Below are positions 5,958-59,962 of a stretch of DNA of 64,000 nt, in pieces (position 1 is the stretch's first letter; each line of letters opens with the position of its first letter). The notes below the pieces were generated by a model. That model searched no databases. It was not told the DNA's origin and saw nothing but the letters and a program-made list of their open reading frames with translations. The position numbers were made by a program, and so were the translations under genes. This DNA comes from an uncultured Cytophagales bacterium (lineage in GTDB: Bacteria; Bacteroidota; Bacteroidia; Cytophagales; Cyclobacteriaceae), in the NCBI GenBank assembly GCA_913057175.1, contig CAJXNP010000003.1:62001-126000 (forward strand), given 5' to 3'.

Positions 5958-5997
5958 TGTACATTATCTATACAAAACGCTGTCAACATTTTTGACA
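5958..5997 (+). promoter_or_regulatory. UAS pair A: TGTACATTATCTATACA + TGTCAACATTTTTGACA
   Basis: Two 17-nt TGT-N11-ACA sites, starts 23 bp apart (5958, 5981); same module upstream of three other permeases. Confidence 0.7.
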
Positions 5998-6051
5998 AGC
6001 CAAGGTAATTGTCATACATTAAGTTACTGATTTACAATTCATTAATATTTC

Positions 6052-6067
6052 GGCACAGAATTGTATG
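6052..6067 (+). promoter_or_regulatory. Sigma-54-like promoter box A (GGCACAGAATTGTATG)
   Basis: 54 nt after UAS A; GGCA-N6-TG shared by four sites. Confidence 0.55.
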
Positions 6068-6114: not shown

Positions 6115-8538
6115 ATGCTCCGACACCACATCAAACTGACATTGCGCAATCTTTGGAAAAACAGAAGCTTTTCAGCTATCAATATTTCCGGCTTTGCCAT
6201 TGGAATTGCTGCCGCGACCATGTTGCTGATGTACACCTGGGATGAGCTGTCCTATGATAATTTTCATGCAAAAAAGGATGACATCTACCTGGTTGGTGTC
6301 AAACAGCAGGGTAAGGATGGTGAGACTGAAAGCGGATGGACCACTCCTCCAACCGGGCCGGCACTCAATGGATACTTTCCGGAAATAGAGACCTTCACAA
6401 GGGTTTGTATCTGGTTTGACGATGTGACGACCAGACGAGGTCAGGAAAAATATATTGAGAAAAATGTTGTCGGCGCCGATTCCACATTCTTTGACGTGTT
6501 TACTGTGAATTTCCTTGCAGGTAATCCTCAAACAGCATTAAAAGAGCCTAATTCTGTTGTCATCACAAAAAGTATCGCCGAAAAATACTTTGGCAATGAA
6601 AATCCCATTGGCAAGACGATGGAATTTGAATCATTTTTCAGTGAATGCACCATTACCGGTCTGATTGAAGACCTGCCGGAAAACAGTCATCTTGAAATTG
6701 ATATCCTGTTTTCCCTCAGCTCCCTTCGTAATATTAATTTTGATTTCGATAAAAGCTGGGAGAACCATACCTTCATTACCTATGTCCTGCTCAATGAATT
6801 TGTCGATCCGCAGGTAGTTGAATCCAAAATCCCCGATTTCCTGAGCGAAAAAATGGGAGCATACTTCCAAAATTCATATGGTCAATCCTTTGAGGAAATG
6901 ATGAACGGAGGAAGCGATTACCGGCTATTTCTTGCTCCGTTAAAAGATGTTCATTTAAGCACTTATGTGCACGAAGGTAAAGAAGGCAAGAAATTAATGA
7001 CCTATGCTTTAGGATTGATAGGTTTGGTCATCATCATCTTAATTTGCATCAACTTTACCAATCTGTCGACATCACTCGCCATAGATCGTATCAGGGAGGT
7101 CGGTGTTAGAAAAACATCAGGAAGTTTGAAATGGTCAATGATCCGCCAGTTTCTAACCGAATCTGTTGTGACGGTTCTAATTGGGTTCGTGATTGGTTTA
7201 GCCATCATGCAATTGGTTCTCCCCTATTTCAATAACCTGACCGATAAAAATCTAAGCTTAGATTTCTTTCATTTGCCTTTTGTCTTATGGGTATTGGGCA
7301 TCGCCGTCCTTCTCGGAATTATCACCGGACTGTATCCTGCTATATATCTTTCATCTTTCAGTCCCATTCAAGCCTTAAATCCAAATCCAGGCGAAAGATT
7401 AAACACGACTTTTGTACGAAATGGCCTGGTTGTGTTTCAGTTTGCCTTGTGCATTTTCATGATCACAGGTACCATTGTTGTGTACAAACAATTGTCACAT
7501 CTAACCCAAATAAATATTGGATTTGACAAAGAACACATTTTAGTTGTGAAACGACCCTGGGCTCTTGGGGAAAAAATGTGGACGTTGAAAGAAGAATTGT
7601 TGGACGATCCTCAGATAAAATATATTTCCTACACGAATACCCTTCCCGGCAGACATTTTGACGGACACGGGCAGCATTTTTCAGGAGATCCAACCGATGT
7701 TGGGTATACCATCTATCCATTGATTGGCGATCCGGACATTCTGAAATTACTGGACCTTGAAGTGGTTGCAGGAAGAGAGTTTACTGCTGAAGATAAAAAT
7801 AAGCCCGTAGTCCTGCTCAATGAAGCTACCGTCCAAAGATATGGTCTGAAAGATCCTCTCAATAAAAAAATTAACGTCGGCACCATGGGCCGAAAAGAGG
7901 TCTCTGTTGTTGGGATTGTGAAAGACTTTCATTTCCAGTCCTTTCACAATCAGATTGAACCAATGGCGATTTTCCAGACCAATCAGGATCAGATGTACAA
8001 TACCAATTACATGTTGATCAAAACTACGGGAAAAGAGCTGTCCGGAATAATTGAAAACGTAGAATCAAGATGGAATAAAATTACCGAAAACCAACCTTTT
8101 GAATATACGTTTCTCGACCAGGATTTTGCGCATGTGTTTGAAAGGGAGGTGATTACATCAAAGGTATATACAATTTTTTCCACTATATCCATCATGATTG
8201 CAAGCCTGGGTTTATTGGGGTTGGCCATGTTCTTCACCAAAAAACGAACAAAAGAGATTGGAATTAGGAAAGTAAATGGCGCGAAAATATGGCAGGTTCT
8301 GTTATTACTTAACAATGATTTTATCAAAAGAGTGCTGATCGCTTTTACCATAGCAAGCCCGCTTGCATGGTATACGATGAACAAATGGCTCGAAAACTTC
8401 GCTTATCAGACAGAGCTGAGCTGGTGGATATTTGCTTTGTCAGGTCTTCTGGCCTTAGGAATTGCGCTGTTATCCGTTAGCTGGCAGAGCTGGAAGGCGG
8501 CAACGAGGAATCCTGTCGAAGCATTAAGATATGAGTAG
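6115..8538 (+). CDS. ABC transporter permease, MacB/FtsX family (807 aa)
   Basis: N-term LRNLWKNRSFSAINISGFAIGIA, periplasmic core, two FtsX domains, C-term RNPVEALRYE. Confidence 0.9.
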   Translation: MLRHHIKLTLRNLWKNRSFSAINISGFAIGIAAATMLLMYTWDELSYDNFHAKKDDIYLVGVKQQGKDGETESGWTTPPTGPALNGYFPEIETFTRVCIWFDDVTTRRGQEKYIEKNVVGADSTFFDVFTVNFLAGNPQTALKEPNSVVITKSIAEKYFGNENPIGKTMEFESFFSECTITGLIEDLPENSHLEIDILFSLSSLRNINFDFDKSWENHTFITYVLLNEFVDPQVVESKIPDFLSEKMGAYFQNSYGQSFEEMMNGGSDYRLFLAPLKDVHLSTYVHEGKEGKKLMTYALGLIGLVIIILICINFTNLSTSLAIDRIREVGVRKTSGSLKWSMIRQFLTESVVTVLIGFVIGLAIMQLVLPYFNNLTDKNLSLDFFHLPFVLWVLGIAVLLGIITGLYPAIYLSSFSPIQALNPNPGERLNTTFVRNGLVVFQFALCIFMITGTIVVYKQLSHLTQINIGFDKEHILVVKRPWALGEKMWTLKEELLDDPQIKYISYTNTLPGRHFDGHGQHFSGDPTDVGYTIYPLIGDPDILKLLDLEVVAGREFTAEDKNKPVVLLNEATVQRYGLKDPLNKKINVGTMGRKEVSVVGIVKDFHFQSFHNQIEPMAIFQTNQDQMYNTNYMLIKTTGKELSGIIENVESRWNKITENQPFEYTFLDQDFAHVFEREVITSKVYTIFSTISIMIASLGLLGLAMFFTKKRTKEIGIRKVNGAKIWQVLLLLNNDFIKRVLIAFTIASPLAWYTMNKWLENFAYQTELSWWIFALSGLLALGIALLSVSWQSWKAATRNPVEALRYE

Positions 8539-8606
8539 TACCTTAATGTGGAGATCCCGACAAAGCGTTATCGATCGTCGGGATAGAAGCATTGAGGCAT
8601 GAGTAA
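8539..8606 (+). repeat. Hairpin plus echo of the gene 3' end (module 1)
   Basis: ATCCCGAC...GTCGGGAT stem, then gaagcattgaggcatgagtaa (EALRHE*) at 8586-8606 echoing gaagcattaagatatgagtag (EALRYE*) at 8518-8538. Confidence 0.75.
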
Positions 8607-8626
8607 TTTAAATAAATGAACCATTT

Positions 8627-11065
8627 ATGTTAAAGAACTACATTAAAATAGCCTGGAGGAACCTCCTTAAGAACAAGACCTATTCCATTATCAATATTGT
8701 AGGGTTGGCTATAGGCCTTGGTTGCTTTTTGCTGATCTCTCTGTATGTCATGGACGAGCTGAGCTATGACAGGTTTAATGAAAAAGCTGATCGGATTTAC
8801 CGGATTGACGCCGATATCATCTTTGGAGGCTCTGAACTGCGATTAGCGACCAGCTCGGATCCTATGGGGGCGACTCTCAAAGCCGATTATCCCGAAGTGG
8901 AAGCATATACCCGGCTGTATACAAGTAGTGGGTCTAAATTCATCAAAAAAGGAGACCAGTTCATTGTTGAGCTAGCGGTCGGGCACGCGGATTCAACGGT
9001 ATTTAACGTCTTTACCATGCCGTTTATAGCCGGCAATCCCGATCGGGCCCTTACCGAACCAAAAACCGTTGTTATTTCGGAGTCGGCAGCGATCAAATAC
9101 TTTGGCACTACCGATGTACTAAATAAAACATTGGAAACAACCGACGATGAGAAAACACTCTATAAGATCACCGGTGTGATGAAAGACATTCCCCATAACG
9201 CACATTTCCAGTTTGATTTTCTGTTTTCAATGCACACTGTAAATTATGGATTTGGTAATTATCTCAGCCATAATTTTCATACGTTTATCGTCCTGCAGGA
9301 AGGGATTGATCCTCAATATTTCGAAAGTAAGCTGCCCGAATACGTCGACAATCATGTACTTCCACAAGCCCAGGCTATGATGAATATCAAAAGCATGGAT
9401 GAATTTAGGAAAAGTGGAAACGACCTGGTGTATTCCCTGATGCCACTTACTAAAATCCATTTATATTCAGACCGCCATCCTGAGTTGGGGATTAACGGGA
9501 ACGTCCAGTATGTATACATCTTTGGAGCCGTAGCCATTTTCATCCTTTTAATCGCCTGTGTCAATTTTATGAACCTCGCCACAGCGAGATCATCCAAGCG
9601 CTCAAAGGAAGTTGGTATCAGAAAGGTGTTGGGAACCCGTCGGAACAAGCTTGTGCGACAGTTTCTTGCTGAGAGCACGCTTACTGCTTTCATTTCACTT
9701 GTAATTGCCTTGCTTTTAGCCTGGCTGATGCTGCCCTTTTTCAACCACCTTTCAACGAAGTCGATGAGTATGCTTAAACTATTTCAAGCGCCCTACATTT
9801 ACTTTCTATGCCTTCTACCATTGATTGTTGGTACACTGGCGGGAAGCTATCCGGCTTTCTTTTTATCGGCTTTCCAGCCAATAGTAGTGTTAAAGGGCAA
9901 GTTAAATGCTGGTGTAAAACGAAGTGTATTTCGTAACTCACTGGTCGTTTTTCAGTTTGTCACATCCATCTTCCTGATCGTCGGGACAATTGTGGTCTAT
10001 AATCAATTAAATTATATCCAAACCAAAAAACTAGGCTTTAACAAAGAGCAGGTGCTAATCCTTGATGGAACCGGTGTTCTCGGCAACAATTTAAGGGCTT
10101 TCAAAAATGAAATCGGCAGCTTTCCGGGAGTCAAGACTGTCTCCTATAGCGGCTACCTTCCTGTCCAGGAATCGTCAAGAAGTGACCGAACATTTTTTAA
10201 AAGTGCCGCTACCGATCCACAAGACGGCCTGAACATGCAAACATGGAGAATTGACTATGACTACCTCCAAACACTCGGAATGGAGATGAAACAAGGGCGG
10301 GCCTTTTCTGAAGAATTTGGCACAGATTCGTCAGCTATTATTATCAATGAAACCACTGCCACCCTTCTTGGCTACGACGATCCGATTGGAAAACAATTGT
10401 ACGTCCTTGAAGGTGATCCACCCAACAGGGAAGTCATAGCCTATAACATCATAGGTATGGTAGAAAATTTTCATTTTGAATCCCTTCGACAGACAATTGC
10501 CCCACTTTGCTTTGTGCTTGGGGAGTCTCGCTGGACGTTGGCAGCAAAAGTTGAGACCGACGACATGGGAAGCCTCATATCAAAAATTGAGTCTACCTTT
10601 AAATCCATGGCGCCGGGCATGCCTTTCCATTATCGGTTTCTCGATGATTCCTTTGACAATATGTACAATGCGGAACAACGTGTAGGAATAATTGCCTTTG
10701 CCTTTTCTATACTGGCGATTTTTATTGCATGTCTCGGTTTATTTGGGCTTGCCACCTACATCGCGGAGCAAAGGACAAAAGAAATCGGAATAAGAAAAGT
10801 AGTAGGGGCTGGCGTAGACAATATTGCTGTAATGCTTTCGAAGGATTTTATGGTATTGATCCTGATTGCTTTTCTTTTTTCTTTCCCGTTAGCTGGCTGG
10901 GCGATGAACAGATGGCTGCAGGATTTTGCCTTCAGAATTGAAATCAGTTGGTGGATCTACCTGGTCGCCGGTGTAATGGCTATGGCAATTGCGCTGCTTA
11001 CGGTTGGGTACCAGGCAGTTCGCGCTGGCAGGGCTAACCCGGTTGATAGTTTGAGAAATGAATGA
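8627..11065 (+). CDS. ABC transporter permease, MacB/FtsX family (812 aa)
   Basis: MLKNYIKIAWRNLLKNKTYSIINIVGLAIGLG ... NPVDSLRNE. Confidence 0.9.
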   Translation: MLKNYIKIAWRNLLKNKTYSIINIVGLAIGLGCFLLISLYVMDELSYDRFNEKADRIYRIDADIIFGGSELRLATSSDPMGATLKADYPEVEAYTRLYTSSGSKFIKKGDQFIVELAVGHADSTVFNVFTMPFIAGNPDRALTEPKTVVISESAAIKYFGTTDVLNKTLETTDDEKTLYKITGVMKDIPHNAHFQFDFLFSMHTVNYGFGNYLSHNFHTFIVLQEGIDPQYFESKLPEYVDNHVLPQAQAMMNIKSMDEFRKSGNDLVYSLMPLTKIHLYSDRHPELGINGNVQYVYIFGAVAIFILLIACVNFMNLATARSSKRSKEVGIRKVLGTRRNKLVRQFLAESTLTAFISLVIALLLAWLMLPFFNHLSTKSMSMLKLFQAPYIYFLCLLPLIVGTLAGSYPAFFLSAFQPIVVLKGKLNAGVKRSVFRNSLVVFQFVTSIFLIVGTIVVYNQLNYIQTKKLGFNKEQVLILDGTGVLGNNLRAFKNEIGSFPGVKTVSYSGYLPVQESSRSDRTFFKSAATDPQDGLNMQTWRIDYDYLQTLGMEMKQGRAFSEEFGTDSSAIIINETTATLLGYDDPIGKQLYVLEGDPPNREVIAYNIIGMVENFHFESLRQTIAPLCFVLGESRWTLAAKVETDDMGSLISKIESTFKSMAPGMPFHYRFLDDSFDNMYNAEQRVGIIAFAFSILAIFIACLGLFGLATYIAEQRTKEIGIRKVVGAGVDNIAVMLSKDFMVLILIAFLFSFPLAGWAMNRWLQDFAFRIEISWWIYLVAGVMAMAIALLTVGYQAVRAGRANPVDSLRNE

Positions 11066-11119: not shown

Positions 11120-11159
11120 TGTCCACAATCTATACAAAACCATGTCAATATTTTTGACA
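11120..11159 (+). promoter_or_regulatory. UAS pair B: TGTCCACAATCTATACA + TGTCAATATTTTTGACA
   Basis: 17-nt sites at 11120 and 11143. Confidence 0.7.
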
Positions 11160-11212
11160 ACAATTGAGGACATCTATTCATAAAAACCTCTTTTACAATG
11201 CGTTAACTTTTA

Positions 11213-11229
11213 GGCATAATATTGTATTG
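11213..11229 (+). promoter_or_regulatory. Sigma-54-like promoter box B (GGCATAATATTGTATTG)
   Basis: 53 nt after UAS B. Confidence 0.55.
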
Positions 11230-11296: not shown

Positions 11297-13645
11297 ATGA
11301 TCAAACATTTTATCGTCACTGCATTCAGGAATATACTAAGGAAAAGGACCCTATCCTTTATCCAGATATTTGGCTTAGCACTTGGCATTACTGCATTTCT
11401 TTTAATTGCCAAATATGTGCAGTATGAAAAAAACTGGGACAAATTCAACACCTATTCTGACCGTATTTACAGGGTTCAACTTTATAAAAAGACAGATGCA
11501 TTAGATGTCGATACCCAAACTTCACCTCCTGTGTCCACCTATATTTCGCAAAACATATCGGATGTTGAAGAAGCTATTACTATCAAGGAGGTTTGGGGTG
11601 AATACCTCTCTCCAAATCCCGAGGCTACTTTTTATGAACCCAATGGATTTTTTGCACCAAGTGAAATATTCTCCATTTTCTCCATTGACCTGATTGAAGG
11701 TGATTTGGAAAATGTCTTAGATCCACCCAACGCCATTGTTTTGTCAGAATCCATGGCGAAGAAATACTTCCCGAAGAGCAATAATTATGTAGGCAAAATC
11801 ATCCTGGACAATCAAAAGAAAGAGCTTGTGATTACCGGGATTATGAAAGACCTTCCAGAATATTCCCACATCAGGCCTGATTATCTTCGCTCCATCACAG
11901 AAATAATGAAATACGATACGAACTGGGGCAATGATTCTTATAAAAACTACGTGCTTCTTAAACCCCATATCAGTGCCCAAAAAATCGATGCCCAAATAAA
12001 ATATCTATATGATGAACATACGGAATTAAATAAATACTACCTCTTTCTGCATCCATTGGGGAAATTGCATCTGGAGCCGGATCGATCAGGTGATCTAAGT
12101 GCAGTAGTATTTTTCAACAGCCTGATTGGCATATTAATCCTGGTCCTGGCCCTTGTTAATTTCATGAATTTGTCCACCGCTTTTTCTTCCACCCGATCGG
12201 TTGAAATCGGCATACGAAAAACCAATGGCAGCAGCCGGAAATCCATTGCATTTCAATTTCTTTTTGAGTCGATGTTTCTTGCAACCATTGCTTTTATATT
12301 GGCAGTCGGTCTTTCATTTATTTGCCTGCCCTATTTTAATCACATCGTCGATCGGGAGATCACCCTGTCGCTGACCAATGACTTTACCATTTTACTATTT
12401 GTATTCCTGATCATCATTTTATCGAGCATCATTTCAAGTGCCTATCCGGCAATCCTGGCGTCGCGATTTAATCCAATTAAAGTGTTGAAAGGAAAAAACC
12501 TGATCCAGGGAAAAAAAGGATATGTTTCCGGAATGAAGGCTATGGTTTACATCCAATTTGTTCTATCAGCGATTCTGATTGCGACAAGTCTTTGGAGTTT
12601 CAAGCAGGTTCAGTATTTACAAAACAAGAGTCTTGGCTTTAACAAAGATCAACTATTGCATACCCGAATGGATGCAAACCAATCTAATTGGTCATACCAA
12701 ACCCTGAGGGAGGAGTTATTGGCTAAACCAGGGTTAAATAATGTAACAATCTCCTCAAATTCGCCTCTACATAGTAATTGGGGAACAGGAGTATTTTATG
12801 AAAATGGTCCAACTGACGAATACAGGCATGTGAATTTTAATTACGCATGCCCTGATTTCATTGATACCTATCAGATTACGTTATTGGATGGAAGGAACTT
12901 TTCAAAAGATTTTTCTGCCGATGACAACGGCTGCCTGATCAATGAAACAGCGGTAATGAAATTTGGCTGGAAGGACCCTATTGGTAAATGGATTGAACTT
13001 CACGATAAAAAATTAAATGTAATCGGTGTGGTGAAGGATTTTCATCAGGGCGATGTCCATAACCTGATCCAACCTTTTGTATTAATGTTGCATGACGGCA
13101 ATATGAACCAACTGAATGATTACACATTTCAAATCAATCAAAATACCCGTCAAGCATCGGTTGACCACATTAAAAGTGTTTTCAACGAAGCATTCCCAAA
13201 CAGTCTCTATCAGATATTTGACTTTGAGGACGACGCAGATCGGACGGAAATAAAGATCTGGTCCAGTGCTCGCGACACATTTGGTTTTTTCGCATGTATA
13301 GCCATTTTGATTGCCATTGTAGGGATATTTGGATTAATCGTTTTTGCCACACAGCGAAAAGTCAAGGAAATAGGAATCAGGAAAGTGCAGGGCGCTACGA
13401 TCTTCCAGGTCTTTAGATTATTTATAAAAGAATATATGGTATTGTTAATCCTGGCCAATATCTGTATCTACCCGGTATTTCCGACACTGGTAGAATATAC
13501 ACCAGGAGCTTATAAATATCATGCATCAATTTTAGATATTTTAATTGTGATCACCATTACGATCATGGTTGTACTGGTCTCAAGCGGATACCTTGCCTAT
13601 AAAGCAGCATCTAGAAATCCTGTTGAGGCACTCAGATATGAGTGA
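11297..13645 (+). CDS. ABC transporter permease, MacB/FtsX family (782 aa)
   Basis: MIKHFIVTAFRNILRKRTLSFIQIFGLALGI ... NPVEALRYE. Confidence 0.9.
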   Translation: MIKHFIVTAFRNILRKRTLSFIQIFGLALGITAFLLIAKYVQYEKNWDKFNTYSDRIYRVQLYKKTDALDVDTQTSPPVSTYISQNISDVEEAITIKEVWGEYLSPNPEATFYEPNGFFAPSEIFSIFSIDLIEGDLENVLDPPNAIVLSESMAKKYFPKSNNYVGKIILDNQKKELVITGIMKDLPEYSHIRPDYLRSITEIMKYDTNWGNDSYKNYVLLKPHISAQKIDAQIKYLYDEHTELNKYYLFLHPLGKLHLEPDRSGDLSAVVFFNSLIGILILVLALVNFMNLSTAFSSTRSVEIGIRKTNGSSRKSIAFQFLFESMFLATIAFILAVGLSFICLPYFNHIVDREITLSLTNDFTILLFVFLIIILSSIISSAYPAILASRFNPIKVLKGKNLIQGKKGYVSGMKAMVYIQFVLSAILIATSLWSFKQVQYLQNKSLGFNKDQLLHTRMDANQSNWSYQTLREELLAKPGLNNVTISSNSPLHSNWGTGVFYENGPTDEYRHVNFNYACPDFIDTYQITLLDGRNFSKDFSADDNGCLINETAVMKFGWKDPIGKWIELHDKKLNVIGVVKDFHQGDVHNLIQPFVLMLHDGNMNQLNDYTFQINQNTRQASVDHIKSVFNEAFPNSLYQIFDFEDDADRTEIKIWSSARDTFGFFACIAILIAIVGIFGLIVFATQRKVKEIGIRKVQGATIFQVFRLFIKEYMVLLILANICIYPVFPTLVEYTPGAYKYHASILDILIVITITIMVVLVSSGYLAYKAASRNPVEALRYE

Positions 13646-13702
13646 CAAAATCCCGACAGAGCGTTAGTGACCGTCGGAATAGAGGCGCTGAGGTATGAAT
13701 AG
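13646..13702 (+). repeat. Hairpin plus gene-end echo (module 2)
   Basis: ATCCCGAC...GTCGGAAT then gaggcgctgaggtatgaatag (EALRYE*) at 13682-13702, synonymous with 13625-13645. Confidence 0.75.
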
Positions 13703-13707
13703 GATGA

Positions 13708-13850
13708 TCGGAGGGCAAATAGCAGAGAGCGGAGGGCTTTGAGTAATCGATGATCAGTAAAACTCAGTTAATTTGACCCAATGCCCAATATCTAGTGACT
13801 AATGCCCAATGACGAAAAAAATCAGAACAGGCAACAACTGGCAACCGCAA
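13708..13850. repeat. Degenerate heptad-type intergenic repeat
   Basis: ggagggc aaatagc agagagc ggagggc phased units, then repeated 'aatgcccaat' words. Confidence 0.5.
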
Positions 13851-13891
13851 ATAAAATATTGATACCTGAAAAAGGATAAAGTTGAAAGAAT

Positions 13892-16315
13892 ATGTTTAAA
13901 AACTACTTAGTAATAGCCTGGAGGAATTTATTGCAAAACAAGACCTTTTCCTTCATAAACATCTTCGGTTTATCTGTCGGACTAGCTACTTGTTTCATCA
14001 TCATGCTATATGTTTTTGATGAGACAAGCTATGACAAACATCAAAAAGACCTGGAACAGATCTACCGGGTCTCAATAAAATCTGAAACGGGGCAAGACCT
14101 TGGCCAATGGGCGGGTACGCCAGCGCCACTGGCCCAAACCATCAAATCTGATTTTGGTGAAGTAGAGCAAACGACCAGGATATTGAATTTTCAGGCTTTC
14201 GAAAAAATGTTCCTGCGAAACGAGGAAACCAACCAGGTGTTTTTGGAAACAAACGGATATTACGCCGATGCTTCGTTTTTTGAGATCTTTACTTACGAAT
14301 TCAAATATGGTAATAAAGCCTCTGCCCTTGAAGGACCTAATACCATGGTCATTTCAGAAGATATTGCCAATAAGCTCTTTGGGAATCAAAACCCAATTGA
14401 CAGGCTGATTATCGTAGAAGGGCCGAATGGAAAACTTGAATACACTGTCAAAGGTGTATTTAAAAATTTGGGTCACAAATCACACCTCAAGGCAAATTAT
14501 CTACTCTCCATGAATAATAATGGTATCGGACAGTGGGTCAGCAGCCTTACCAGCTGGGCGTACAACAATATCTTCCATGCCTACATCAAGCTCAATAAAG
14601 AGGCAGATGTCTCATCCTTCGAAGAAAAATTACCAGCCTTTCTCGATCAGCATGGAGGAAAAGATTTAAAGGAAATGAACTTGTCCAAAAGCCTTTTCCT
14701 TCAGCCACTGAAGGATATTTACCTCACCTCGGATATCGGATATGAAGTTTCGGCCAATGGCAGCATCATATACATCTATATTTTCAGCTCTATCGCATTG
14801 TTTCTATTGCTGATCGCGTGCATCAACTTCATGAACCTGTCAACCGCAAGATCAGAAAAACGAGCCAGGGAAGTAGGAGTAAGAAAGGTGATGGGCGCTC
14901 AGAAAATTGCTTTGGTATGGCAATTTCTTGGTGAATCATTGATGATGGCGCTAATCGCATTTCTATTTTCCCTGATAATTGCAGGGCTTTTTCTTCCCCT
15001 CATCAACAGCATTGTACAAAAAGAACTTAGCCTGTTTCAGAAACCCATACTTGTTTTTTGGATGCTTGGGTTGACCATTATAACAGGTTTTATTGCCGGA
15101 CTTTATCCTTCAGTTTTTTTATCCTCATTCAAAGCAGTGGTAACGCTGAAAGGCAAATTATTGAACAGCCTTTCAGCGGTTGCCATTCGCAAGGGTTTGG
15201 TCATTTTTCAATTTGCCATATCCATTTCCCTTATTCTTGTAGCGATGGTTATCTGGCAACAACTCCATTATATCAAAAACAAGGATCTCGGGTTTGACAA
15301 GGAGCAAAAGGTTGTTATTCCTTTTCAAAATACTTCTTCCGCCCAAAACTACACAGCACTAAAAAATGTGCTCCTTCAAAATCCGGGAATTATTTCAGCC
15401 TCTGCAGGTACGAGTTACCCGGGCATTCAGCTAATAGAAGACATGCTGTTTTATCCGGCAGACAAACCAACCGATGAATTTGTAGATATTCATCTGGTAA
15501 ATGCCGCAAACGACTATATTGAAACCCTGGGGTATGAAATGTTGAATGGGCGAATATTTTCGCAAAATGACTCCACCGATCTCAACTCCATTATCCTGAA
15601 TGAAACAGCCATTAAACAGTTGGGATATGATAAAAATGAGGCTATTGGCAAATCCATCTATTTTGACATGGGCGAAAAGACATTTCTTACAATTATCGGT
15701 GTTGTCAGGGATTTTAATTATAAAAGCCTGCATGAAAACATCACTCCCTATGGCATTTTAAAACTTGACAACCGTTTACCACGGTATTTCATTACCAACA
15801 TACAAAAAGACAATGTAAAAGGCACTCTTTCCGACATTCAGGAAGCCTGGAATAAAATAAATCCCGACATACCATTTACCTATTCATTTTTGGACCAGGA
15901 TTTTCAAAAAAACTATGAAAGGGAAGAACGTACCTCCAGCATCATTGTGGCGTTTACGATCGTTGCCATATTCATTGCTTGCCTGGGATTGTTTGGTCTG
16001 GCCTCCTTTACAGCAGAGCAAAGAAAAAAAGAGGTTGGGGTACGAAAAGTCTTAGGCGCTTCTGTGACCAGCGTTACAGCTCTACTTTCCAAAGACTTCT
16101 TAAAACTCGTAGTATTAGCCATTTTAATTTCAGGGCCCATCGCCTGGTTCCTGGGCAACAGGTGGTTGGAGGATTTTGCCTATCACATTGACATGAGCTG
16201 GTGGACATTTTTACTGGCTGGTGTGGTTGCCATTTTGATTGCGTTGATCACCATAAGCTTTCAATCGATTAAGGCAGCTTTGAGTAATCCGGTAAACTCG
16301 TTACGGAATGAATAA
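13892..16315 (+). CDS. ABC transporter permease, MacB/FtsX family (807 aa)
   Basis: MFKNYLVIAWRNLLQNKTFSFINIFGLSVGLA ... NPVNSLRNE. Confidence 0.9.
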   Translation: MFKNYLVIAWRNLLQNKTFSFINIFGLSVGLATCFIIMLYVFDETSYDKHQKDLEQIYRVSIKSETGQDLGQWAGTPAPLAQTIKSDFGEVEQTTRILNFQAFEKMFLRNEETNQVFLETNGYYADASFFEIFTYEFKYGNKASALEGPNTMVISEDIANKLFGNQNPIDRLIIVEGPNGKLEYTVKGVFKNLGHKSHLKANYLLSMNNNGIGQWVSSLTSWAYNNIFHAYIKLNKEADVSSFEEKLPAFLDQHGGKDLKEMNLSKSLFLQPLKDIYLTSDIGYEVSANGSIIYIYIFSSIALFLLLIACINFMNLSTARSEKRAREVGVRKVMGAQKIALVWQFLGESLMMALIAFLFSLIIAGLFLPLINSIVQKELSLFQKPILVFWMLGLTIITGFIAGLYPSVFLSSFKAVVTLKGKLLNSLSAVAIRKGLVIFQFAISISLILVAMVIWQQLHYIKNKDLGFDKEQKVVIPFQNTSSAQNYTALKNVLLQNPGIISASAGTSYPGIQLIEDMLFYPADKPTDEFVDIHLVNAANDYIETLGYEMLNGRIFSQNDSTDLNSIILNETAIKQLGYDKNEAIGKSIYFDMGEKTFLTIIGVVRDFNYKSLHENITPYGILKLDNRLPRYFITNIQKDNVKGTLSDIQEAWNKINPDIPFTYSFLDQDFQKNYEREERTSSIIVAFTIVAIFIACLGLFGLASFTAEQRKKEVGVRKVLGASVTSVTALLSKDFLKLVVLAILISGPIAWFLGNRWLEDFAYHIDMSWWTFLLAGVVAILIALITISFQSIKAALSNPVNSLRNE

Positions 16316-16331
16316 ATGGAATACATTCATA

Positions 16332-16475
16332 TTAGTTGCCCGATGTTCGAACCCGAATACGATTTTTATCGACCGTGATCAAAGCGTTTTTGTCAAGTTC
16401 TTTCTTGTATTTTTCCAAAATCTTTACGCAAAGGGAACCTTGTTCTGCAGCACGATGGTCAATAATTATAGGGAC
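16332..16475 (-). pseudogene. C-terminal remnant of a DUF5615 (PIN-like) toxin
   Basis: Minus-strand reading VPIIIDHRAAEQGSLCVKILEKYKKELDKNALITVDKNRIRVRTSGN*; typical C-terminal ALITVD.NRIRVR; N-terminal half absent. Confidence 0.6.
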
Positions 16476-16708
16476 ATAGGCAAATCAATTCGTTCATGCG
16501 CAACTATTTTATGGGCGTATACCAAACAGGCTTGTATGTCTTCAGGTTCAATCCAGTCATACCCTTTAAGGATAATTTCAGCGGTATCACCGGCAGCTAG
16601 CATACCCAATACATGCTCCACTGCCAATCGCTTACCGCGAATAATAGGTTTTCCCCCAAAAATTTCAGGATTGAAGGTTATACGTTCTAGTAGCTTTTTC
16701 TCTTCCAT
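16466..16708 (-). CDS. DUF433 family antitoxin-like protein
   Basis: ERITFNPEIFGGKPIIRGKRLAVEHVLGMLAAGDTAEIILKGYDWIEPEDIQACLVYA is the DUF433 pattern; Met at 16708 preferred. Confidence 0.85.
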   Translation of the reverse strand: MEEKKLLERITFNPEIFGGKPIIRGKRLAVEHVLGMLAAGDTAEIILKGYDWIEPEDIQACLVYAHKIVAHERIDLPMSL

Positions 16709-16750
16709 GAAAATAAAGATCATGATTAAAACTTTAAACTCACTAAGTAA

Positions 16751-19156
16751 ATGATACGGAGCTACCTGAAAATCGCCTTCCGAAACATTAATAAAAACAA
16801 AGTTAATTCCCTTATTAACATCGTTGGGCTTTCCATCGGGATCACTTGCTGCATTATCATCATTATTTTTGTTAACTACGAATCAAACTTCGACAGCCGC
16901 CATTCCCATTCAGCGCTGACTTACCGTGTCGTTCAGCATACGAAAATGCCCGAACAGACTTTGCATTGGAATACGACAGCATACCCATTGGCAGAAGCGC
17001 TCAGAAATGATTTTCCGGAATTAGAGATGGTAACGCAATCGGCAGGACCAGTAAACCGGATGTTTAGTGTTGAAGGTCGTAATGGAAATATCTTTCGCTT
17101 CGAAGAAAACTTCGTTCTGTTTGTGGATTCCTATTACCCCAGGGTGTTTGATCTCGAATGGATTCAAGGAAGTCCGGAATCTGCTTTAAAGGATCCAAAT
17201 TCAATTGTATTGACAGAAAACATTGCCGAAAAAATTTTTGGTGATATCACCTTAAGCAAGCCGTCAATTCTCGGTAAGGTTATCATATTAAATGGAAAAG
17301 ATCCACTCACCATTACCGGAGTCGTCAAAAATCCTCCAGGAAATACCAACCTTCAATTCAACCTGCTTATTCCTTATGAATTTTTTAAAATGCATAATGT
17401 TTACCAGACCAATAACTGGTCTGGGAATTACCAGGGAACCACTTTCCTGGTTTTACCTGATAAAAACATCAAAGACGACGTCCAGGATAAAATCGCCGGT
17501 TGGAAAAAGAAATATCTCAAACCTGAAGATGACAACCGGATTTCATATGAGCTTCAGCCACTTTCAGAATCACATACAGAAACGCTATATGGGAGCAGTC
17601 CGGGCGGATATACCATGCCTCGCTACCTGCTTCAAACAGCCTATTTTGTAGCCTTATTTATCCTGATCATCGCCATTGTCAATTTCGTGAACCTCACGAC
17701 TGCCCAGGCAACATCCCGTGCAAAAGAGGTGGGAATAAGAAAAACCGTCGGAAGTACGCGATTGGATCTGATCAGGCAATTCACTTTTGAAAATACCGTA
17801 CTTGTTATAATCTCTCTTGCTCTTTCGACGGTGAGCGTTCATTTTTTGATCAGTCAACTCAATGACCATTTATCCATCATTAATTTGCAATTATCTTTTG
17901 AGTGGAGTAATGCTGGTTTGATTATCCTTATTGGCTGTCTTACTATCATTCTTGCAGCCTTTTATCCGGCTTTTGTACTTTCTTCTTTCAAACCCATTCA
18001 GGCCATTAAGGACAAGATTTCGACAGGAAACAAGAGTGGTTTAACCTTTAGGAAGTCGCTGACCGTATTTCAGTTTTTAATTGTCCAGCTTTTTGTCATT
18101 GCCGCTATGGTCGTTGCCATCCAAATGGATTATTTCAGAAGCAAAGAACTAGGATTTTCATCAGAGGCAGTCATTTCAACTCCGGTCCCGGAATTCAATA
18201 AAATCGAGGTGTTCAAAAACTCGCTTTTGCAAAACAATAAGATTTCGAACGTGGCCATTGGCTCGGGACCACCCATGGCGGTAGATGGATTTATGCTCGG
18301 TACAACTTTCCGACTTCCTCATCAAAGCAAGGAAGAAGCGCAGGAATCAGAAATGAAGATTGGCGATTTGAATTACCTCGACTTTTTTGATTTGCAACTG
18401 ATCGCCGGAAGGAACTTTAGGACTACTAAACAGGCATTCGATGAGTTTATCGTAAATGAAAAACTACTGAAATCGATGGGATGGACACCAGAGGAAGCTA
18501 TCAGTAAAAAGCTTGTGATCAATGAAGGAGAAGCTATAATTGTTGGCGTTGTGAAAGACTTTCACAATAATTCCCTGCAAAATGAGATCACACCCTGCAT
18601 TATTATGAATTGGAATTACTTCCAGGACCAGGCTTTTATTAAAGTTGAAAACACAAGCAGTGGATACCTGCCTGCTATCAGGGAAATATGGGAAGAGGTA
18701 TTTCCAACCTCGGTTTATCGCTATGGGTTTGTCGATGATTCGATAGAAAGGGAATACCAACTTGAAAGCCTTGTTTTTAATGGATTTACCCTTTTTTCTA
18801 TTCTGGCGATAACCATCGGATGTCTGGGATTATTTGGGTTGGTTACATTTGCTACGGAGCAAAGAGTCAAAGAAATCGGCATCAGAAAAGTGCTGGGGTC
18901 AACGGTAACTCAAATTGTCACCATGCTCACCAGAGACTATGTCAGCCTTGTGTTGATTTCGTGTTTCATAGCGTTTCCAATTGGATTTTACCTGACGAAC
19001 AAGTGGCTTCAAAATTTTGCTTATGGAATAGATACCCATTGGTGGATCTTTGCATTAGCAGGATTCATTACCATACTTATTGCCTTTATCACCGTCAGTT
19101 TTAAAAGTATCAGGTCGGCCCTGGCAAACCCTGTGAAAAGTCTACGATCGGAATAA
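16751..19156 (+). CDS. ABC transporter permease, MacB/FtsX family (801 aa)
   Basis: MIRSYLKIAFRNINKNKVNSLINIVGLSIGIT ... NPVKSLRSE. Confidence 0.9.
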   Translation: MIRSYLKIAFRNINKNKVNSLINIVGLSIGITCCIIIIIFVNYESNFDSRHSHSALTYRVVQHTKMPEQTLHWNTTAYPLAEALRNDFPELEMVTQSAGPVNRMFSVEGRNGNIFRFEENFVLFVDSYYPRVFDLEWIQGSPESALKDPNSIVLTENIAEKIFGDITLSKPSILGKVIILNGKDPLTITGVVKNPPGNTNLQFNLLIPYEFFKMHNVYQTNNWSGNYQGTTFLVLPDKNIKDDVQDKIAGWKKKYLKPEDDNRISYELQPLSESHTETLYGSSPGGYTMPRYLLQTAYFVALFILIIAIVNFVNLTTAQATSRAKEVGIRKTVGSTRLDLIRQFTFENTVLVIISLALSTVSVHFLISQLNDHLSIINLQLSFEWSNAGLIILIGCLTIILAAFYPAFVLSSFKPIQAIKDKISTGNKSGLTFRKSLTVFQFLIVQLFVIAAMVVAIQMDYFRSKELGFSSEAVISTPVPEFNKIEVFKNSLLQNNKISNVAIGSGPPMAVDGFMLGTTFRLPHQSKEEAQESEMKIGDLNYLDFFDLQLIAGRNFRTTKQAFDEFIVNEKLLKSMGWTPEEAISKKLVINEGEAIIVGVVKDFHNNSLQNEITPCIIMNWNYFQDQAFIKVENTSSGYLPAIREIWEEVFPTSVYRYGFVDDSIEREYQLESLVFNGFTLFSILAITIGCLGLFGLVTFATEQRVKEIGIRKVLGSTVTQIVTMLTRDYVSLVLISCFIAFPIGFYLTNKWLQNFAYGIDTHWWIFALAGFITILIAFITVSFKSIRSALANPVKSLRSE

Positions 19157-19326: not shown

Positions 19327-19366
19327 TGTTCATATTTTTAACACCCAGCTGTACAATAATTTGACA
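19327..19366 (+). promoter_or_regulatory. UAS pair C: TGTTCATATTTTTAACA + TGTACAATAATTTGACA
   Basis: 17-nt sites at 19327 and 19350, 23 bp apart. Confidence 0.7.
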
Positions 19367-19419
19367 ATAATTCCCGGCAATCCGTCTTAACAATCAGACA
19401 TTCAGATATTTACAAATCA

Positions 19420-19436
19420 GGCACGCTTTTGAATTG
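19420..19436 (+). promoter_or_regulatory. Sigma-54-like promoter box C (GGCACGCTTTTGAATTG)
   Basis: 53 nt after UAS C; implies translation starts at 19471, not 19429. Confidence 0.6.
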
Positions 19437-19470: not shown

Positions 19471-21825
19471 ATGCTCAGACATCATCTGCTCCTTATCTTC
19501 CGAAATTTCAAACGACACAAAAGTTCGCTTTTTATTAACCTGATCGGTCTTTCTGCGGGATTGGCTTGTGCTTTACTGATCTATCTGTGGGTGGATGACG
19601 AGCTGAAAGTGGACAAATTTCATGAAAATGACGATCAGCTTTTTCTGGTGATGTACCACCAGGAATTATCTAAAGGAACTTTTACAAGTGACAAGACCCC
19701 TGGCCCACTTTCAGAAGCATTGAAAGATGAAATACCCGACATCAAATATGCCGCTACCGCCACATGGGTTGAGTTTCTTACGCTTTCTTTGGAAGATGAA
19801 AATTTAAAAGCGCGGGGAATATACGCCAGTGAGGACTATTTCAACGTGTTTTCCTATGAACTTATCCAGGGAGGCCAAAGTGAGGTATTAAAAGCTCCCA
19901 ATTCAATCGTGTTGTCCGAAAGCTTATGCCAAAGGTTATTCCATACGACAGAAAATGTGATTGGTAAGTCAGTGGAATTCGAACACGAATCGGTCTACCA
20001 GGTGACGGGTATCTTTGAAAACATTCCTGCCAACTCTACTATGCAGTTCGACTTTGTATTGTCTTTTGAAGAATTTGAAAAGCGCTATGCATGGGCATTA
20101 GATTGGAATTCGTCCGGCCCGTATACTTATGTAGTCACGAACGAAAATTCAGATCTACCCTCTCTAAATGAAAAAATTGCGGATTTCGTGACCGTGAGAA
20201 GGGAAGAAGGACCTGCCATCGAGCTGTTTTTAAAACCTTATTCTGAAAAATATCTATACGGCCGCTATTCAGAAGGAAAACAAGCAGGCGGAAGAATAGA
20301 ATATGTAAGGCTATTTTCTTTCATCGCTATTTTCATCCTTATCATAGCCTGCATTAACTTCATGAACCTGTCTACTGCCAAAGCTTCCATCAGGCTAAAG
20401 GAGATTGGAGTAAAAAAAACCATAGGGGCCAGTCGCACTGCGCTGGTATTTCAATACCTGGGGGAGTCGATATTGTTAACTTTTCTGTCACTCTTTGTTG
20501 CTATCCTTCTTGTCGTTCTTTTTTTACCCAGTTTCAATCAGATTACCGGAAAGCATTTTACGCTAAGCGTTGATATATCGTTCTTTTTGTCAGTGATTAG
20601 CATTTCTCTAATTACCGGTATACTAGCGGGCAGTTATCCGGCTCTGTATCTGTCAGGTTTTAATCCCATCGCCATGTTAAAAGGAAAACTAAATGTTTCC
20701 GTCGGGGAAATTTTTGCACGAAAAGGACTGGTTGTATTCCAGTTTGTAATCTCGGTTATATTAATTGTCGCTGTCTTGGTGGTTTATAAACAAATAGAAT
20801 TTGTTCAAGAGATACATCTGGGATACGACAAAGACAATATCATTTACTTTAAAAAAGAAGGAAAAGTAGCTTCGAAGCCGGAAATTTTTCTGGATGAAGT
20901 CAGAAATATTCAGGGAGTTAAAAATGCCTCACTCCTGGGGCATAGCATGCTGGAATACACCATGAATACCAACAACATAGATTGGGAAGGGAAAAATCCG
21001 GATGAAAAAATTAGTTTCGAGTATATGTTCGCTGATTATGACATGATGGAAACCCTGAATATGAAAATGCGGGAAGGCCGGATGTTTTCAGAAAACTTTG
21101 CTACAGACAGTGCAGCCATCATTCTTAATGAGGCTGCAATTGATTATATGGGAATCGAGGATCCCTTAGGGAAACAGGCCAAACTGTGGGGTAGTAACAT
21201 GAAGATTATTGGAGTCGTGAAAAACTTTCACTTCACCTCTCTTCATGAAAAAATCAAACCGTTAATCATCATACTCAGACCTGACGTTGCATGGAACATC
21301 ATTGCAAGAATTGAAGGAAACAGGCAAAACGAAACAATAAGCGAAATTGAGGAACTCTACGGGTCATACAATCCCGGTTTTATTTTCAACTATCAATTTC
21401 TGGATGAAGACTACCAGGCCCTCTACACCGCCGAACAGCGTGTCTCCACGTTGTCTAAATACTTTGCCGGTTTTGCCATTCTTATTTCATGCCTGGGATT
21501 GTTTGGCCTGGCTTCATTTACCGCACAAAGGAGACAAAAAGAAATTGGCATACGAAAAGTTTTTGGCTCAAGTGAACTAGACATTGTCAAAGTATTATCA
21601 GGAGACTTCACCAGGATGGTGTTTATCGCAATTGTAATTGCTCTTCCAGTCAGTTATTTCTTTGCCGTTCGATGGTTAAAGGGCTTTGCCTATCACATCG
21701 ATTTATCATGGTGGATGTTTGCCGGTGCAGGGCTGGTGACGTTATTGGTTGCATGGTGCACAGTGGGAATGCAAACGGTAAAAGCGGCCCTGGCAAACCC
21801 GGTGAAAAGTTTACGATCGGAATAA
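19471..21825 (+). CDS. ABC transporter permease, MacB/FtsX family
   Basis: MLRHHLLLIFRNFKRHKSSLFINLIGLSAGLA ... NPVKSLRSE; the ORF track starts at 19429 but the promoter-like box overlaps that start. Confidence 0.88.
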   Translation: MLRHHLLLIFRNFKRHKSSLFINLIGLSAGLACALLIYLWVDDELKVDKFHENDDQLFLVMYHQELSKGTFTSDKTPGPLSEALKDEIPDIKYAATATWVEFLTLSLEDENLKARGIYASEDYFNVFSYELIQGGQSEVLKAPNSIVLSESLCQRLFHTTENVIGKSVEFEHESVYQVTGIFENIPANSTMQFDFVLSFEEFEKRYAWALDWNSSGPYTYVVTNENSDLPSLNEKIADFVTVRREEGPAIELFLKPYSEKYLYGRYSEGKQAGGRIEYVRLFSFIAIFILIIACINFMNLSTAKASIRLKEIGVKKTIGASRTALVFQYLGESILLTFLSLFVAILLVVLFLPSFNQITGKHFTLSVDISFFLSVISISLITGILAGSYPALYLSGFNPIAMLKGKLNVSVGEIFARKGLVVFQFVISVILIVAVLVVYKQIEFVQEIHLGYDKDNIIYFKKEGKVASKPEIFLDEVRNIQGVKNASLLGHSMLEYTMNTNNIDWEGKNPDEKISFEYMFADYDMMETLNMKMREGRMFSENFATDSAAIILNEAAIDYMGIEDPLGKQAKLWGSNMKIIGVVKNFHFTSLHEKIKPLIIILRPDVAWNIIARIEGNRQNETISEIEELYGSYNPGFIFNYQFLDEDYQALYTAEQRVSTLSKYFAGFAILISCLGLFGLASFTAQRRQKEIGIRKVFGSSELDIVKVLSGDFTRMVFIAIVIALPVSYFFAVRWLKGFAYHIDLSWWMFAGAGLVTLLVAWCTVGMQTVKAALANPVKSLRSE

Positions 21826-21837
21826 AAATACTAAACT

Positions 21838-24222
21838 ATGCTTAAAAACTACTTCAAAATCGCGTGGTGAAACCTAACCAGAAATAAAAGTTTTGCCATC
21901 ATCAACACATTGGGTTTGGCGCTTGGTTTTGCCTGCTGCATCCTGATCTATTCGTTTGTTCAATACAATTTGAGCTTTGACGATTTCCATGAAAATTCAG
22001 ATCGCATATACCGGATCGTGACAGAAGAACACCGTGATTACATCGATTACGAGGCTAGTGTCCCTCCTGCATTGGGAAGGGAATTTCGGAATGATTATGA
22101 TTATGCGGATAAGATCGCCCGGATCGCCACCATGGAAGAACAGATCATTTCTTTTACACAAAATGGCCTGAAACAAAAGTACGAGGAAGAAGTTGCCTTT
22201 GCAGAGCACGAATTCTTCGAGATTTTCCATTATCCATTAATCTCCGGAAGTTCATTTGATTTTCTCACCGAACCCAATACAGCTATTATCACCGAACGCA
22301 TTGCTTCAAAGTTTTTCGGGAGCACTGATGTTATCGGAAGGACCTTCCAACTCGATAACCGGATCGAACTTACCGTACGTGGCATCCTGAAAGACCTTCC
22401 GTTTAATACGCTCAGGCAATCCGAAATTTATATCTCCTACCCTACTATCGAGGATTATGGAGGATTTATTGCCGGCGACAACTGGAATGGTATATCAAGC
22501 GCCCTACAGTGTTTCACCTTGCTGAAACCAAATATCTCTCCGCAGTTGGTTGAGAGTGAATTACAAAAGTATGTTCCTATCAAACGTGCAAATAATAAAA
22601 ACGTGCATCATTACAAACTCCAGCCAATAGCGGATGTGCACTACAACACCCAATATGATGGAGTCATTTCCAAGCAAACCCTTTTGGTGTTTTCCTTTAT
22701 CGGGCTATTCCTGATCATTGCCGCTTGTATTAATTTCATCAACATGTCTACGGCACAGGCGATGAGCCGGTCCCGCGAAGTAGGTGTCCAAAAAGTTTTA
22801 GGTGGGTATCGATGGCAATTATTCCGAAGGTTTATGAGTGAAACGGCTTTACTGAGCCTGTTTTCATTGTTCCTTGGTTTGATATTGGCATATATCCTCT
22901 TACCATACCTCAACAAATGGTTTGAAGTTAATATCGTTGCATATCAGCTGATGGTTTTTGAATTCCTGATTTTTGTTGCCGCTCTATTTATCGGCATCAC
23001 CCTATTTGCAGGTGTTTACCCGGGATTATTGTTATCCGGAATTTCACCAACGCTGGCATTGAAAGGTAAGCTCACCCAGCATCATACAGGAAGTCTTTTT
23101 ACCCGGAAATCACTCATTATTACCCAATTTGTGATATCCCAGGTGTTAATTGTCGGTATGATTGTGATTGGCAAACAAATGCATTTCGCTCTCAATACGG
23201 ACCTGGGTTTTGAAAAGGAGGCCATTATTACTGTCAGTATTCCAGCTGAGTTGGATTATGAAAAACGAAATGACCTAAAAAACAGGATGTTGGATATTCC
23301 CAATGTCCAGGAGATTACAGCATGTCTTGCCCCGCCTTCCCATTCCAACAATTGGGGAACAGGATTGCGATTTGACAACCACCCGGAGGATGAAGAATTC
23401 TCCATCCAGGTCAAAGCGGCTGACGAGGATTACCTGGAAACTTTTGACCTGGAATTGATCGCGGGAAGGAATTTCTTTCCATCCGAATCGGCCAAGGAAT
23501 TTGTAGTTAATGAGAAGCTTGTGAAAAAATTGAACCTCCATTCTCCTGATGAAATTATTGGGAAGACCCTATCAGTGAATGGTGGTTCTACAACCGGGCC
23601 AATCGTCGGAGTTGTCAGGGACTTTCACAACTGGGACCTTCATTCGGAAATTGACCCGGTCTTTATCACAACCCTGGATTTTGCCATAAGCCTTTACGCT
23701 ATCAAGATCAACATGAACAATCCTCAAAGTACCATCGATCAAATCGAAACCAATTGGAGTGAAGTCTTTCCCAATTATATCTTTGATTATGAATTCCTGG
23801 ATGAGCACATTGCGAGGTTTTACGAATCCGAAGCCAGAACTTTCAGACTAATCCAGGTATTCACATTATTGGCGATTTTCATCAGTTGTCTGGGCATGTT
23901 TGGTCTGATTTCATTTTTGGTCAACAGAAAAACCAAGGAAATAGGTGTACGAAAAGTATTGGGAGGAAGTGTTGCCCATGTACTTTGGTTATTTCTGAAT
24001 GAATTCCTTAAGCTGGTTATGGTTGCAGGAATAGTTGCCATACCAATTTCATGGTTTATGATGGACAGCTGGCTTCAAAATTTCCAATACAAAATCGAAA
24101 TAGGCATCTGGATCTTTGGTATTGCCGTGCTGGCAAGCCTTGTCATTACTTTCATCACAGTAGGATTTCAGAGTATGAAAGCAGCGTTGACGAATCCGGC
24201 GAAGAGTTTGAGAACGGAGTGA
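21838..24222 (+). pseudogene. ABC transporter permease, MacB/FtsX family, with in-frame TGA at codon 11 (ORF track restarts at TTG 21910)
   Basis: atg ctt aaa aac tac ttc aaa atc gcg tgg TGA aac cta acc aga aat aaa = MLKNYFKIAW*NLTRNK; the rest is intact to NPAKSLRTE. Confidence 0.75.
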
Positions 24223-26364: not shown

Positions 26365-26402
26365 TGTCAAATTTTTTAACACATATGTCCATTTTTTGTT
26401 CA
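26365..26402 (+). promoter_or_regulatory. UAS pair D: TGTCAAATTTTTTAACA + TGTCCATTTTTTGTTCA
   Basis: 17-nt sites at 26365 and 26386, 21 bp apart. Confidence 0.65.
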
Positions 26403-26455
26403 CTTTTCGCACCCCATTCACTTATAAAATATTAAAAATCAATAACTTATAATTC

Positions 26456-26470
26456 TGGCATGTAAATGAC
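26456..26470 (+). promoter_or_regulatory. Sigma-54-like promoter box D (TGGCATGTAAATGAC)
   Basis: GG at 26457, 54 nt after UAS D. Confidence 0.5.
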
Positions 26471-26479
26471 AGCAATAAT

Positions 26480-29063: not shown

Positions 29064-29118
29064 CGAGGAGATCCCGATAGTGAAACGTATCGGGATAGAG
29101 TCTTTGTGATATGAATAA
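29064..29118 (+). repeat. Hairpin plus gene-end echo (module 3)
   Basis: ATCCCGAT...ATCGGGAT then gagtctttgtgatatgaataa (ESL*YE*) at 29098-29118 versus gaatcgctacgatacgagtag (ESLRYE*) at 29043-29063. Confidence 0.75.
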
Positions 29119-29132
29119 AAAATTTCTGAATT

Positions 29133-31247: not shown

Positions 31248-31392
31248 GGCAGGGAGCAGAGAGGCAAGGTGAATGTGTTGCGGGTTGCCAGTTGCGAGTC
31301 AAAAAGAACCATCAACAAGGACCCATAAACCAGAAACTCAATCAACCAATTAACTTAGTGATTAATTAACTCAATAGCCAATGATAAAAAGT
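31248..31392. repeat. Heptad/octad super-repeat R1 (13 heptads then octads)
   Basis: ggcaggg agcagag aggcaag gtgaatg tgttgcg ggttgcc agttgcg agtcaaa aagaacc atcaaca aggaccc ataaacc agaaact | caatcaac caattaac ttagtgat taattaac tcaatagc. Confidence 0.85.
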
Positions 31393-31531
31393 GTAGAGAG
31401 CGGAGAGGAAAAGGGTTGCGTGTTACGGGTTGCCAGTTACGGGTCAAAAAGAACCATCAACAAGAACCCTGAAACCAGCAACCCAATTAACTAAATAGAC
31501 CTATTAACATAATAACTCAACAACATAATCC
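31393..31531. repeat. Heptad/octad super-repeat R2 (13 heptads + 6 octads), ending exactly at the next start codon
   Basis: gtagaga gcggaga ggaaaag ggttgcg tgttacg ggttgcc agttacg ggtcaaa aagaacc atcaaca agaaccc tgaaacc agcaacc | caattaac taaataga cctattaa cataataa ctcaacaa cataatcc | ATG. Confidence 0.85.
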
Positions 31532-33901: not shown

Positions 33902-34194
33902 GGGTTGCAGGTTACCAGTTGCGGGTTGCGAGTTACCAGTTACGGGTTACACGAAACTAGCAACCGGCAACTCGCAACAATTAACAATATTTTTACAATC
34001 AACTCAATCAACCAATTAACTTAGTAACCAATTAATTCATTAGCCAATGATAAAAAGTGTGGAGGGTGGAGAGCAAAAAGGGTTGCGGGTTGCCGGCTAC
34101 CAGTTGATCAAGATCAAAAAAACCAGCAACAAGAACCAAGAAACCAGAAACCCTATTAACTTAATAACTCAATAACAATTAACTACTTTTATAC
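33902..34194. repeat. Heptad/octad super-repeats R3/R4
   Basis: 33902-33950: gggttgc aggttac cagttgc gggttgc gagttac cagttac gggttac; then GCAAC heptads, octads, 'caatgataaaaagtgt', and a second round to the ATPase start. Confidence 0.8.
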
Positions 34195-59491: not shown

Positions 59492-59962
59492 ATGAATAGA
59501 AATTTCATATTAATTATTGCTGGGTTGATAATGATGATCCAGCCAATATTTGCGCAGTCGACTGATGATTACCTGGAAGTTGCCAGGGATGTGCTCAATA
59601 CTGAGAAAAAGGCAGTAGTTGCTGAAGCCATGCAATTAAGTGAATCAGAGAGCGGCCCATTCTGGGAATTATATAATGAGTATAACGCAGAATTGTATAA
59701 AATTCACACTACCAGGGTGAACATCATCATGGATTTTGCTGACAACTATGAATCATTGACGGATGATAAGGCAGAGGAGTTGCTGACGAGAATGGTGCAT
59801 TATCAAAACAACTTACTTGGCCTGAATAAGACCTACATCAAAAAGTTTAAAAAAGTACTCCCTGCAGGAAAGGTTGCCCGATATTTTCAAATCGAAAATA
59901 AGGTTGAAGCCATGATAAATTATGATCTGGCTGAAGAAATACCACTGATTGAAACCAATTAA
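59492..59962 (+). CDS. Secreted hypothetical helical protein
   Basis: Signal peptide MNRNFILIIAGLIMMIQPIFAQ; charged helical body. Confidence 0.6.
   Translation: MNRNFILIIAGLIMMIQPIFAQSTDDYLEVARDVLNTEKKAVVAEAMQLSESESGPFWELYNEYNAELYKIHTTRVNIIMDFADNYESLTDDKAEELLTRMVHYQNNLLGLNKTYIKKFKKVLPAGKVARYFQIENKVEAMINYDLAEEIPLIETN

Follow-up and report, generated by a model that had tools for sequence, protein, structure and literature searches.

The four promoter modules A-D found in the window, by which we mean the whole 64,000-nucleotide stretch that was analysed (contig C3, positions 62001-126000, of a 6.62-Mb genome of the Bacteroidota family Cyclobacteriaceae), are probably four of the eight repeated promoters that make up a dedicated local regulon. 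We consider likely, as an explanation taken whole, that a two-component pair, two activator dimers, a DNA bend and sigma-54 RNA polymerase would together control all eight modules. The parts of this explanation that were read directly from the DNA are the module itself, its confinement to one array of permease genes, its conservation across the phylum beside orthologous regulators, the covariation of recognition helix and half-site, and the GG-N10-G of regulator-proximal promoters.

Each module in the window lies on the plus strand and joins two predicted activator sites (TGTN11ACA palindromes), an IHF-like core and a -24/-12-like element ahead of a unit of permease genes. In module A, the predicted sites TGTACATTATCTATACA (5958-5974) and TGTCAACATTTTTGACA (5981-5997) are followed by the core CAATTCATTA (6035-6044), a CAR-N4-TTR sequence at -17 from GG, and by the element CGGCACAGAATTGTATG (6051-6067), in which the -24 GGCAC is present and the -12 G is absent; unit A (6115-11065) encodes two MacB_PCD+FtsX permeases (6115-8538 and 8627-11065). 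Module B has predicted sites at 11120-11136 and 11143-11159, the core CAATGCGTTA (11196-11205) and the element AGGCATAATATTGTATT (11212-11228), and unit B (11297-19156) encodes three permeases (11297-13645, 13892-16315 and 16751-19156) as well as a 148-amino-acid open-reading frame with no Pfam match (16308-16754). Module C, with predicted sites at 19327-19343 and 19350-19366, the core CAGATATTTA (19403-19412) and the element AGGCACGCTTTTGAATT (19419-19435), precedes the two permeases of unit C (19471-24222; genes at 19471-21825 and 21910-24222). Module D is the degenerate member of the set, with a gap of N4 and a degenerate second site, TGTCCATTTTTTGTTCA, in its predicted pair (26365-26381 and 26386-26402), followed by the core CAATAACTTA (26440-26449) and the element TGGCATGTAAATGACAG (26456-26472). 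Unit D (26700-34857) contains two permeases (26700-29063 and 31532-33901), between them a CBM9/beta-lactamase-like protein (29133-31247) whose beta-lactamase match is sub-threshold, and an ABC ATPase (34195-34857). The paired sites start 23, 23, 23 and 21 nt apart in A, B, C and D, and the end of the second site is 54, 53, 53 and 54 nt from the GG (5997 to 6052, 11159 to 11213, 19366 to 19420 and 26402 to 26457), so that the positions, letters and spacings given for these four modules by an earlier sequence-only reading of the window were all confirmed.

Single TGTN11ACA palindromes were scarcely more frequent in the window than expected (22 versus 15.2, with 5 of 100 shuffles as high). The exact tandem TGTN11ACA-N6-TGTN11ACA matched seven times in 6.62 Mb, every time in C3:21,901-81,366, within 60 kb, and these seven were among the 11 genome matches to a tandem with any gap of 3-8, for which the reversed pattern gave one match. 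As the window is C3:62001-126000, it contains three of the seven exact tandems, namely modules A, B and C; four further modules lie upstream of it on C3 (E at 21901, F at 42858, G at 46215 and H at 59698), and with degenerate D the total is eight, a count that overstates the number of independent events because the modules of a single genome share ancestry (A, B and H visibly so). Each of the eight precedes MacB/FtsX permease genes or the TolC-HlyD exporter operon, with the GG box 92-94 nt after the start of the module in 8/8. When a model was trained on 18 modules taken exclusively from other genomes, it scored all eight at 26.8-51.5 bits, and 12 simulated 121-kb sequences gave no score above 23.7 bits. 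Seven of the eight outscored every other place, and module G, the weakest, was outscored by the reverse strand of certain other modules. The enrichment upstream of permeases that the sequence-only reading had expected of a genome scan with its gapped pattern was strong, all seven exact N6 tandems being in the array, and its division of the array into four transcription units has given way to eight modules and 22 permeases. These 22 MacB_PCD+FtsX double permeases, part of which fall in the window, are accompanied in the array by two ABC ATPases. In the genome as a whole, 24 double-length MacB/FtsX permeases were found, only two of them elsewhere, so that 22 of 24 would be placed under one signal if the regulon is true.

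Module E has a divergent two-component pair on one side and a TolC-HlyD-ATPase-permease operon on the other. The pair consists of an NtrC-family response regulator (C3:20489-21850, minus strand; 15489-16850 in the extracted locus L060), whose gene is ~50 bp from the module, and its partner histidine kinase (C3:19168-20499, minus strand; L060:14168-15499), both divergent from this first module. An NtrC/Fis-type regulator and rpoN had each been named in the sequence-only reading as genes to look for, and both were found. The regulator has receiver, Sigma54_activat and HTH_8 domains above cut-offs (PF00072, PF00158 with E 1.2e-66, and PF02954) and is far below every NCBIfam equivalog cut-off. Its loop reads GAFTDA for GAFTGA, with the threonine kept and the second G changed to D, and GAFTDA or GSFTDA is found in nearly all members of its orthologue group. 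The genome has one copy of rpoN (Sigma54_DBD E 2.3e-56) with an intact RpoN box, ARRTVAKYRE. The kinase, judged by eye from the N-termini of 30 orthologues, appears to have two adjacent membrane helices with nearly no periplasmic loop and for this reason may, by analogy with BceS-type kinases, sense the membrane or a transporter; if one guesses from the transporter family, the first candidates for the inducing signal or substrate are antimicrobial peptides and other compounds that act on the envelope. A paralogous activator (C11:145176-146534), 53-54% identical, has its own kinase and the recognition helix RASLYRR. Other activators were rejected as regulators of the array, as the surroundings of the eight other strong Sigma54_activat genes, the C11 paralogue included, yielded neither permeases nor tandem sites. 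Autoregulation of the activator through a reversed module was also rejected, because the reverse-strand match puts GGCA within the activator's first codons and is thus not a promoter.

The gapped pattern with GGCA was found in 29 of 198 genomes of the family, compared with about one control match. Of the family matches listed, a small number were discounted as being either a palindromic pair read from its opposite strand or chance-like, and most of the remainder flank an activator of 46-75% identity and/or a permease. Orthologues of the regulator were located at 80 loci in named genomes, nearly all Bacteroidota, including Cyclobacteriaceae, Flavobacteriaceae, Alistipes, Odoribacter, Roseivirga and others, and at most of these the regulator-kinase pair is divergent from HlyD/ATPase/permease genes, often with TolC. 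Smaller arrays, of two to four modules, are present in two close relatives. Regulators with the helix QTLYNK go with A at half-site position 6 (33/36 half-sites) and those with TTLYRK go with C (23/28), a contrast that at the level of modules gave a Fisher p of 0.0017 among related sequences that are not independent. This covariation ties the predicted regulator to the TGTN11ACA palindromes and suggests that its specificity could be read from the recognition helix.

When the regulator-proximal promoters were aligned at GG, GG-N10-G was present in 23 of 24 (p ~1.6e-15, a value that, like the other promoter p-value below, overstates the evidence because relatives and duplicates are not independent), ten of them with GC and often as TTGGCA; the position 10 nt after GG had not been used in selecting these 24. 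GG-N10-G is the sigma-54 signature, and the -12 G is the defining feature of sigma-54 promoters. Module E itself reads GG-N10-GG. The internal promoters of A-D and F-H all have GGCA[CT] (7/7), with T before the GG solely in D, and the -12 G is absent from 11 of 11 array-internal promoters, seven here and four in the two relatives (Fisher p 2.9e-8), while TT at +9/+10 is retained in 10 of the 11. Three promoters in other genera, not shown to lie beside the regulator, carry the -12 G (L097, L108 and L113), so the loss belongs to the arrays of this clade. We class the regulator as an NtrC-class activator and, from their sequences, the regulator-proximal promoters as sigma-54-type; the internal ones are placed apart, as a variant failing the -12 test, A-D being sigma-54-like and failing one defining feature because they have lost this G. 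Thus the earlier proposal of an enhancer-binding activator with sigma-54 stands for the tandem sites and for a sigma-54-type promoter ahead of permeases, and falls short at the -12 G of A-D. The one-base offset of the -12 element that it had described was rejected after alignment, as the orthologous GG-N10-G promoters line up with A-D with no shift and the impression of one arose from the lost G; nor was the suggested lineage-specific sigma-54 needed to read the regulator-proximal promoters, which have GG-N10-G.

In module E, two candidate -24/-12 elements overlap, offset from each other by 12 nt (L060:16994-17022). The perfect GG-N10-GC, at spacing 64, was rejected since transcription from it would begin inside tolC. 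With the GG-N10-GG, whose spacing is 54, 14 nt are left before the ATG, a layout shared by the two closest orthologues (L118 and L119), and a transcript from it would be nearly leaderless.

Loss of the -12 G probably makes the internal promoters weaker or differently tuned compared with the exporter promoter. We propose only tentatively, and with some doubt, that they form a distinct sigma-54 subclass in which the activator pair, the IHF-like site and GGCAY are kept and the -12 G is systematically lost. If such a subclass is true, a single activator could grade output between the exporter core, with its canonical -12, and the permeases, with an altered -12, and with the altered -12 the step that is regulated at the promoter fork would be a different one. 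Within this one regulon, sigma-54-type promoters that have the -12 G can naturally be compared with others that lack it.

A further element, absent from the sequence-only reading, is the conserved IHF-like core. CAR-N4-TTR occurs at -17 from GG in 7/8 modules, and shuffles never gave more than two. The IHF-site consensus is WATCAR-N4-TTR; the WAT part is full only in D, where AAT lies 5′ of the core to give WATCAA-N4-TTR, and in E, and most copies match IHF only at the C-A-R and T-T-R letters. The core is a probable bend site that resembles an IHF site. The genome encodes one strong and several weak HU/IHF homologues. DNA looping at sigma-54 promoters is often aided by IHF (PMC7057263), with assistance described from either IHF or HU (PMC7057263, PMC4641369). 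Across orthologues, the distance from the second site to GG is 51-55 or 62-65 nt and never between, two spacer classes one helical turn apart, as expected of factors that face each other over a short distance.

According to the mechanism that we propose, a signal received by the kinase would lead to phosphorylation of the regulator, which would then occupy both TGTN11ACA palindromes as a pair of dimers separated by about two turns of the helix. An IHF/HU-type protein would bend the DNA at CAR-N4-TTR, allowing the AAA+ hexamer to reach sigma-54 RNA polymerase at GGCAY-N4-TT and open it, with sigma-54 presumably also used at the internal promoters. The TolC-HlyD-ATPase exporter operon of module E and the units of F, G, H, A, B, C and D would thereby be switched on together.

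Counting against the sigma-54 reading are the seven internal promoters that do not have the -12 G and the GAFTDA loop of the activator, though this loop is near-constant in the orthologue group. The partial match of most IHF-like cores to the IHF consensus and the finding of only one strong HU/IHF homologue also weigh against the full explanation. The regulator might instead use sigma-54 at the TolC/exporter promoter, with the internal promoters served by another holoenzyme and a conventional activator bound at the tandem sites. One such holoenzyme would be that of the Bacteroidetes housekeeping sigma factor, whose promoters have -33 TTTG and -7 TAnnTTTG. The distribution of the -12 G (0/11 internal and 23/24 regulator-proximal promoters) fits this division, as does a TAnnTTT-like stretch just 5′ of GGCA in B (TAACTTTT), F (TATATTTC) and H (TAATTTTC). 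However, C, D and G have no good TAnnTTTG, the regulator belongs to the AAA+ class that remodels sigma-54, and both classes of promoter share GGCAY, the IHF-like site, the TT at +9/+10 and the spacing from the activator sites; we judge two holoenzymes to be improbable.

Repressors, too, commonly have tandem palindromes in front of efflux genes, and the pairs could be read as operators beside an incidental GGCA box. Yet what accompanies the sites from genus to genus is the gene for an AAA+ response regulator, the recognition helix of this regulator changes in step with the site sequence, and GG-N10-G lies at a fixed distance downstream, making repression at these sites very unlikely. We give least credence, and very little, to the modules being passive leftovers of tandem gene duplication with no present regulatory function. 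The visible kinship of A, B and H and the degeneracy of D, which lies between dispersed inverted repeats, are what duplication would leave behind, but the permeases behind the modules are only ~30-36% identical and a permease tree gave no single clade for the module-led permeases, and still the sites, spacing and box have been kept and the model from other genomes recognised all eight modules. The preferred reading thus remains activation by the two-component regulator with sigma-54.

This arrangement resembles NtrC/ZraR/AtoC-type systems, which likewise have a regulator with receiver, AAA+ and Fis-type HTH, a divergent target operon, and a tandem palindromic enhancer ~100 bp upstream of a -24/-12 promoter, and differs from them in its GAFTDA loop, its scores below the NCBIfam equivalogs and its eight module copies for one paralogous array. 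The order enhancer, IHF-like site and -24/-12 is shared with psp/nif-type promoters, whereas here the predicted IHF-like site is very near the -24 box and the internal promoters do not have the -12 G. As in MacAB-TolC, DarBCD-type and ADOP-type exporters, there are a TolC, an HlyD-type adaptor, a MacB-like ATPase and MacB_PCD+FtsX permeases; in contrast, 22 permeases here accompany only two ATPases, the array proteins scanned were below the DarB/DarC/DarD curated cut-offs, and two permeases scored 276 and 291 bits against the ADOP permease model (TIGR03434; curated cut-off 622.3). BceRS-BceAB modules of Firmicutes have, next to an FtsX-type transporter, a kinase with two membrane helices and a near-zero extracytoplasmic loop (PMC3023708), as the kinase of this array appears to have; here a sigma-54-type activator takes the place of the BceR-type regulator, and sensing through the transporter would be by analogy only.

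A 2025 survey predicted statistically that COG0577 permeases are under sigma-54 control in Bacteroidia (PMC12316311), the same class of gene under sigma-54 in Bacteroidota as here; in the portion of its text available to us, it is a genome-wide enrichment from promoter matrices that names no activator, enhancer sites or arrays. In a literature search, which covered few subscription journals, neither the regulator nor its sites nor the repeated module was found to have been described. The modules offer a concrete, testable candidate regulon for a widespread and apparently unstudied Bacteroidota regulator, in which a single unit joins activator sites, promoter, probable bend site and targets.

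Some other features of the array were observed. The window gave no Rfam match to a structured RNA. Module D lies within a pair of nested, imperfect inverted repeats (26217-26253/26599-26635, 81%, and 26327-26358/26489-26520, 78% complementary) built from intergenic repeat phrases such as GCAGAGGGC and AACTTAATCAACCAATAAC, and similar phrases were found again in other intergenic gaps of the array. A gene for an M28-family peptidase (C3:41403-42758) lies inside the permease array, divergent from module F, and a lone IS200-like Y1 transposase open-reading frame (PF01797; 5368-5838 of the window) is positioned immediately upstream of module A.
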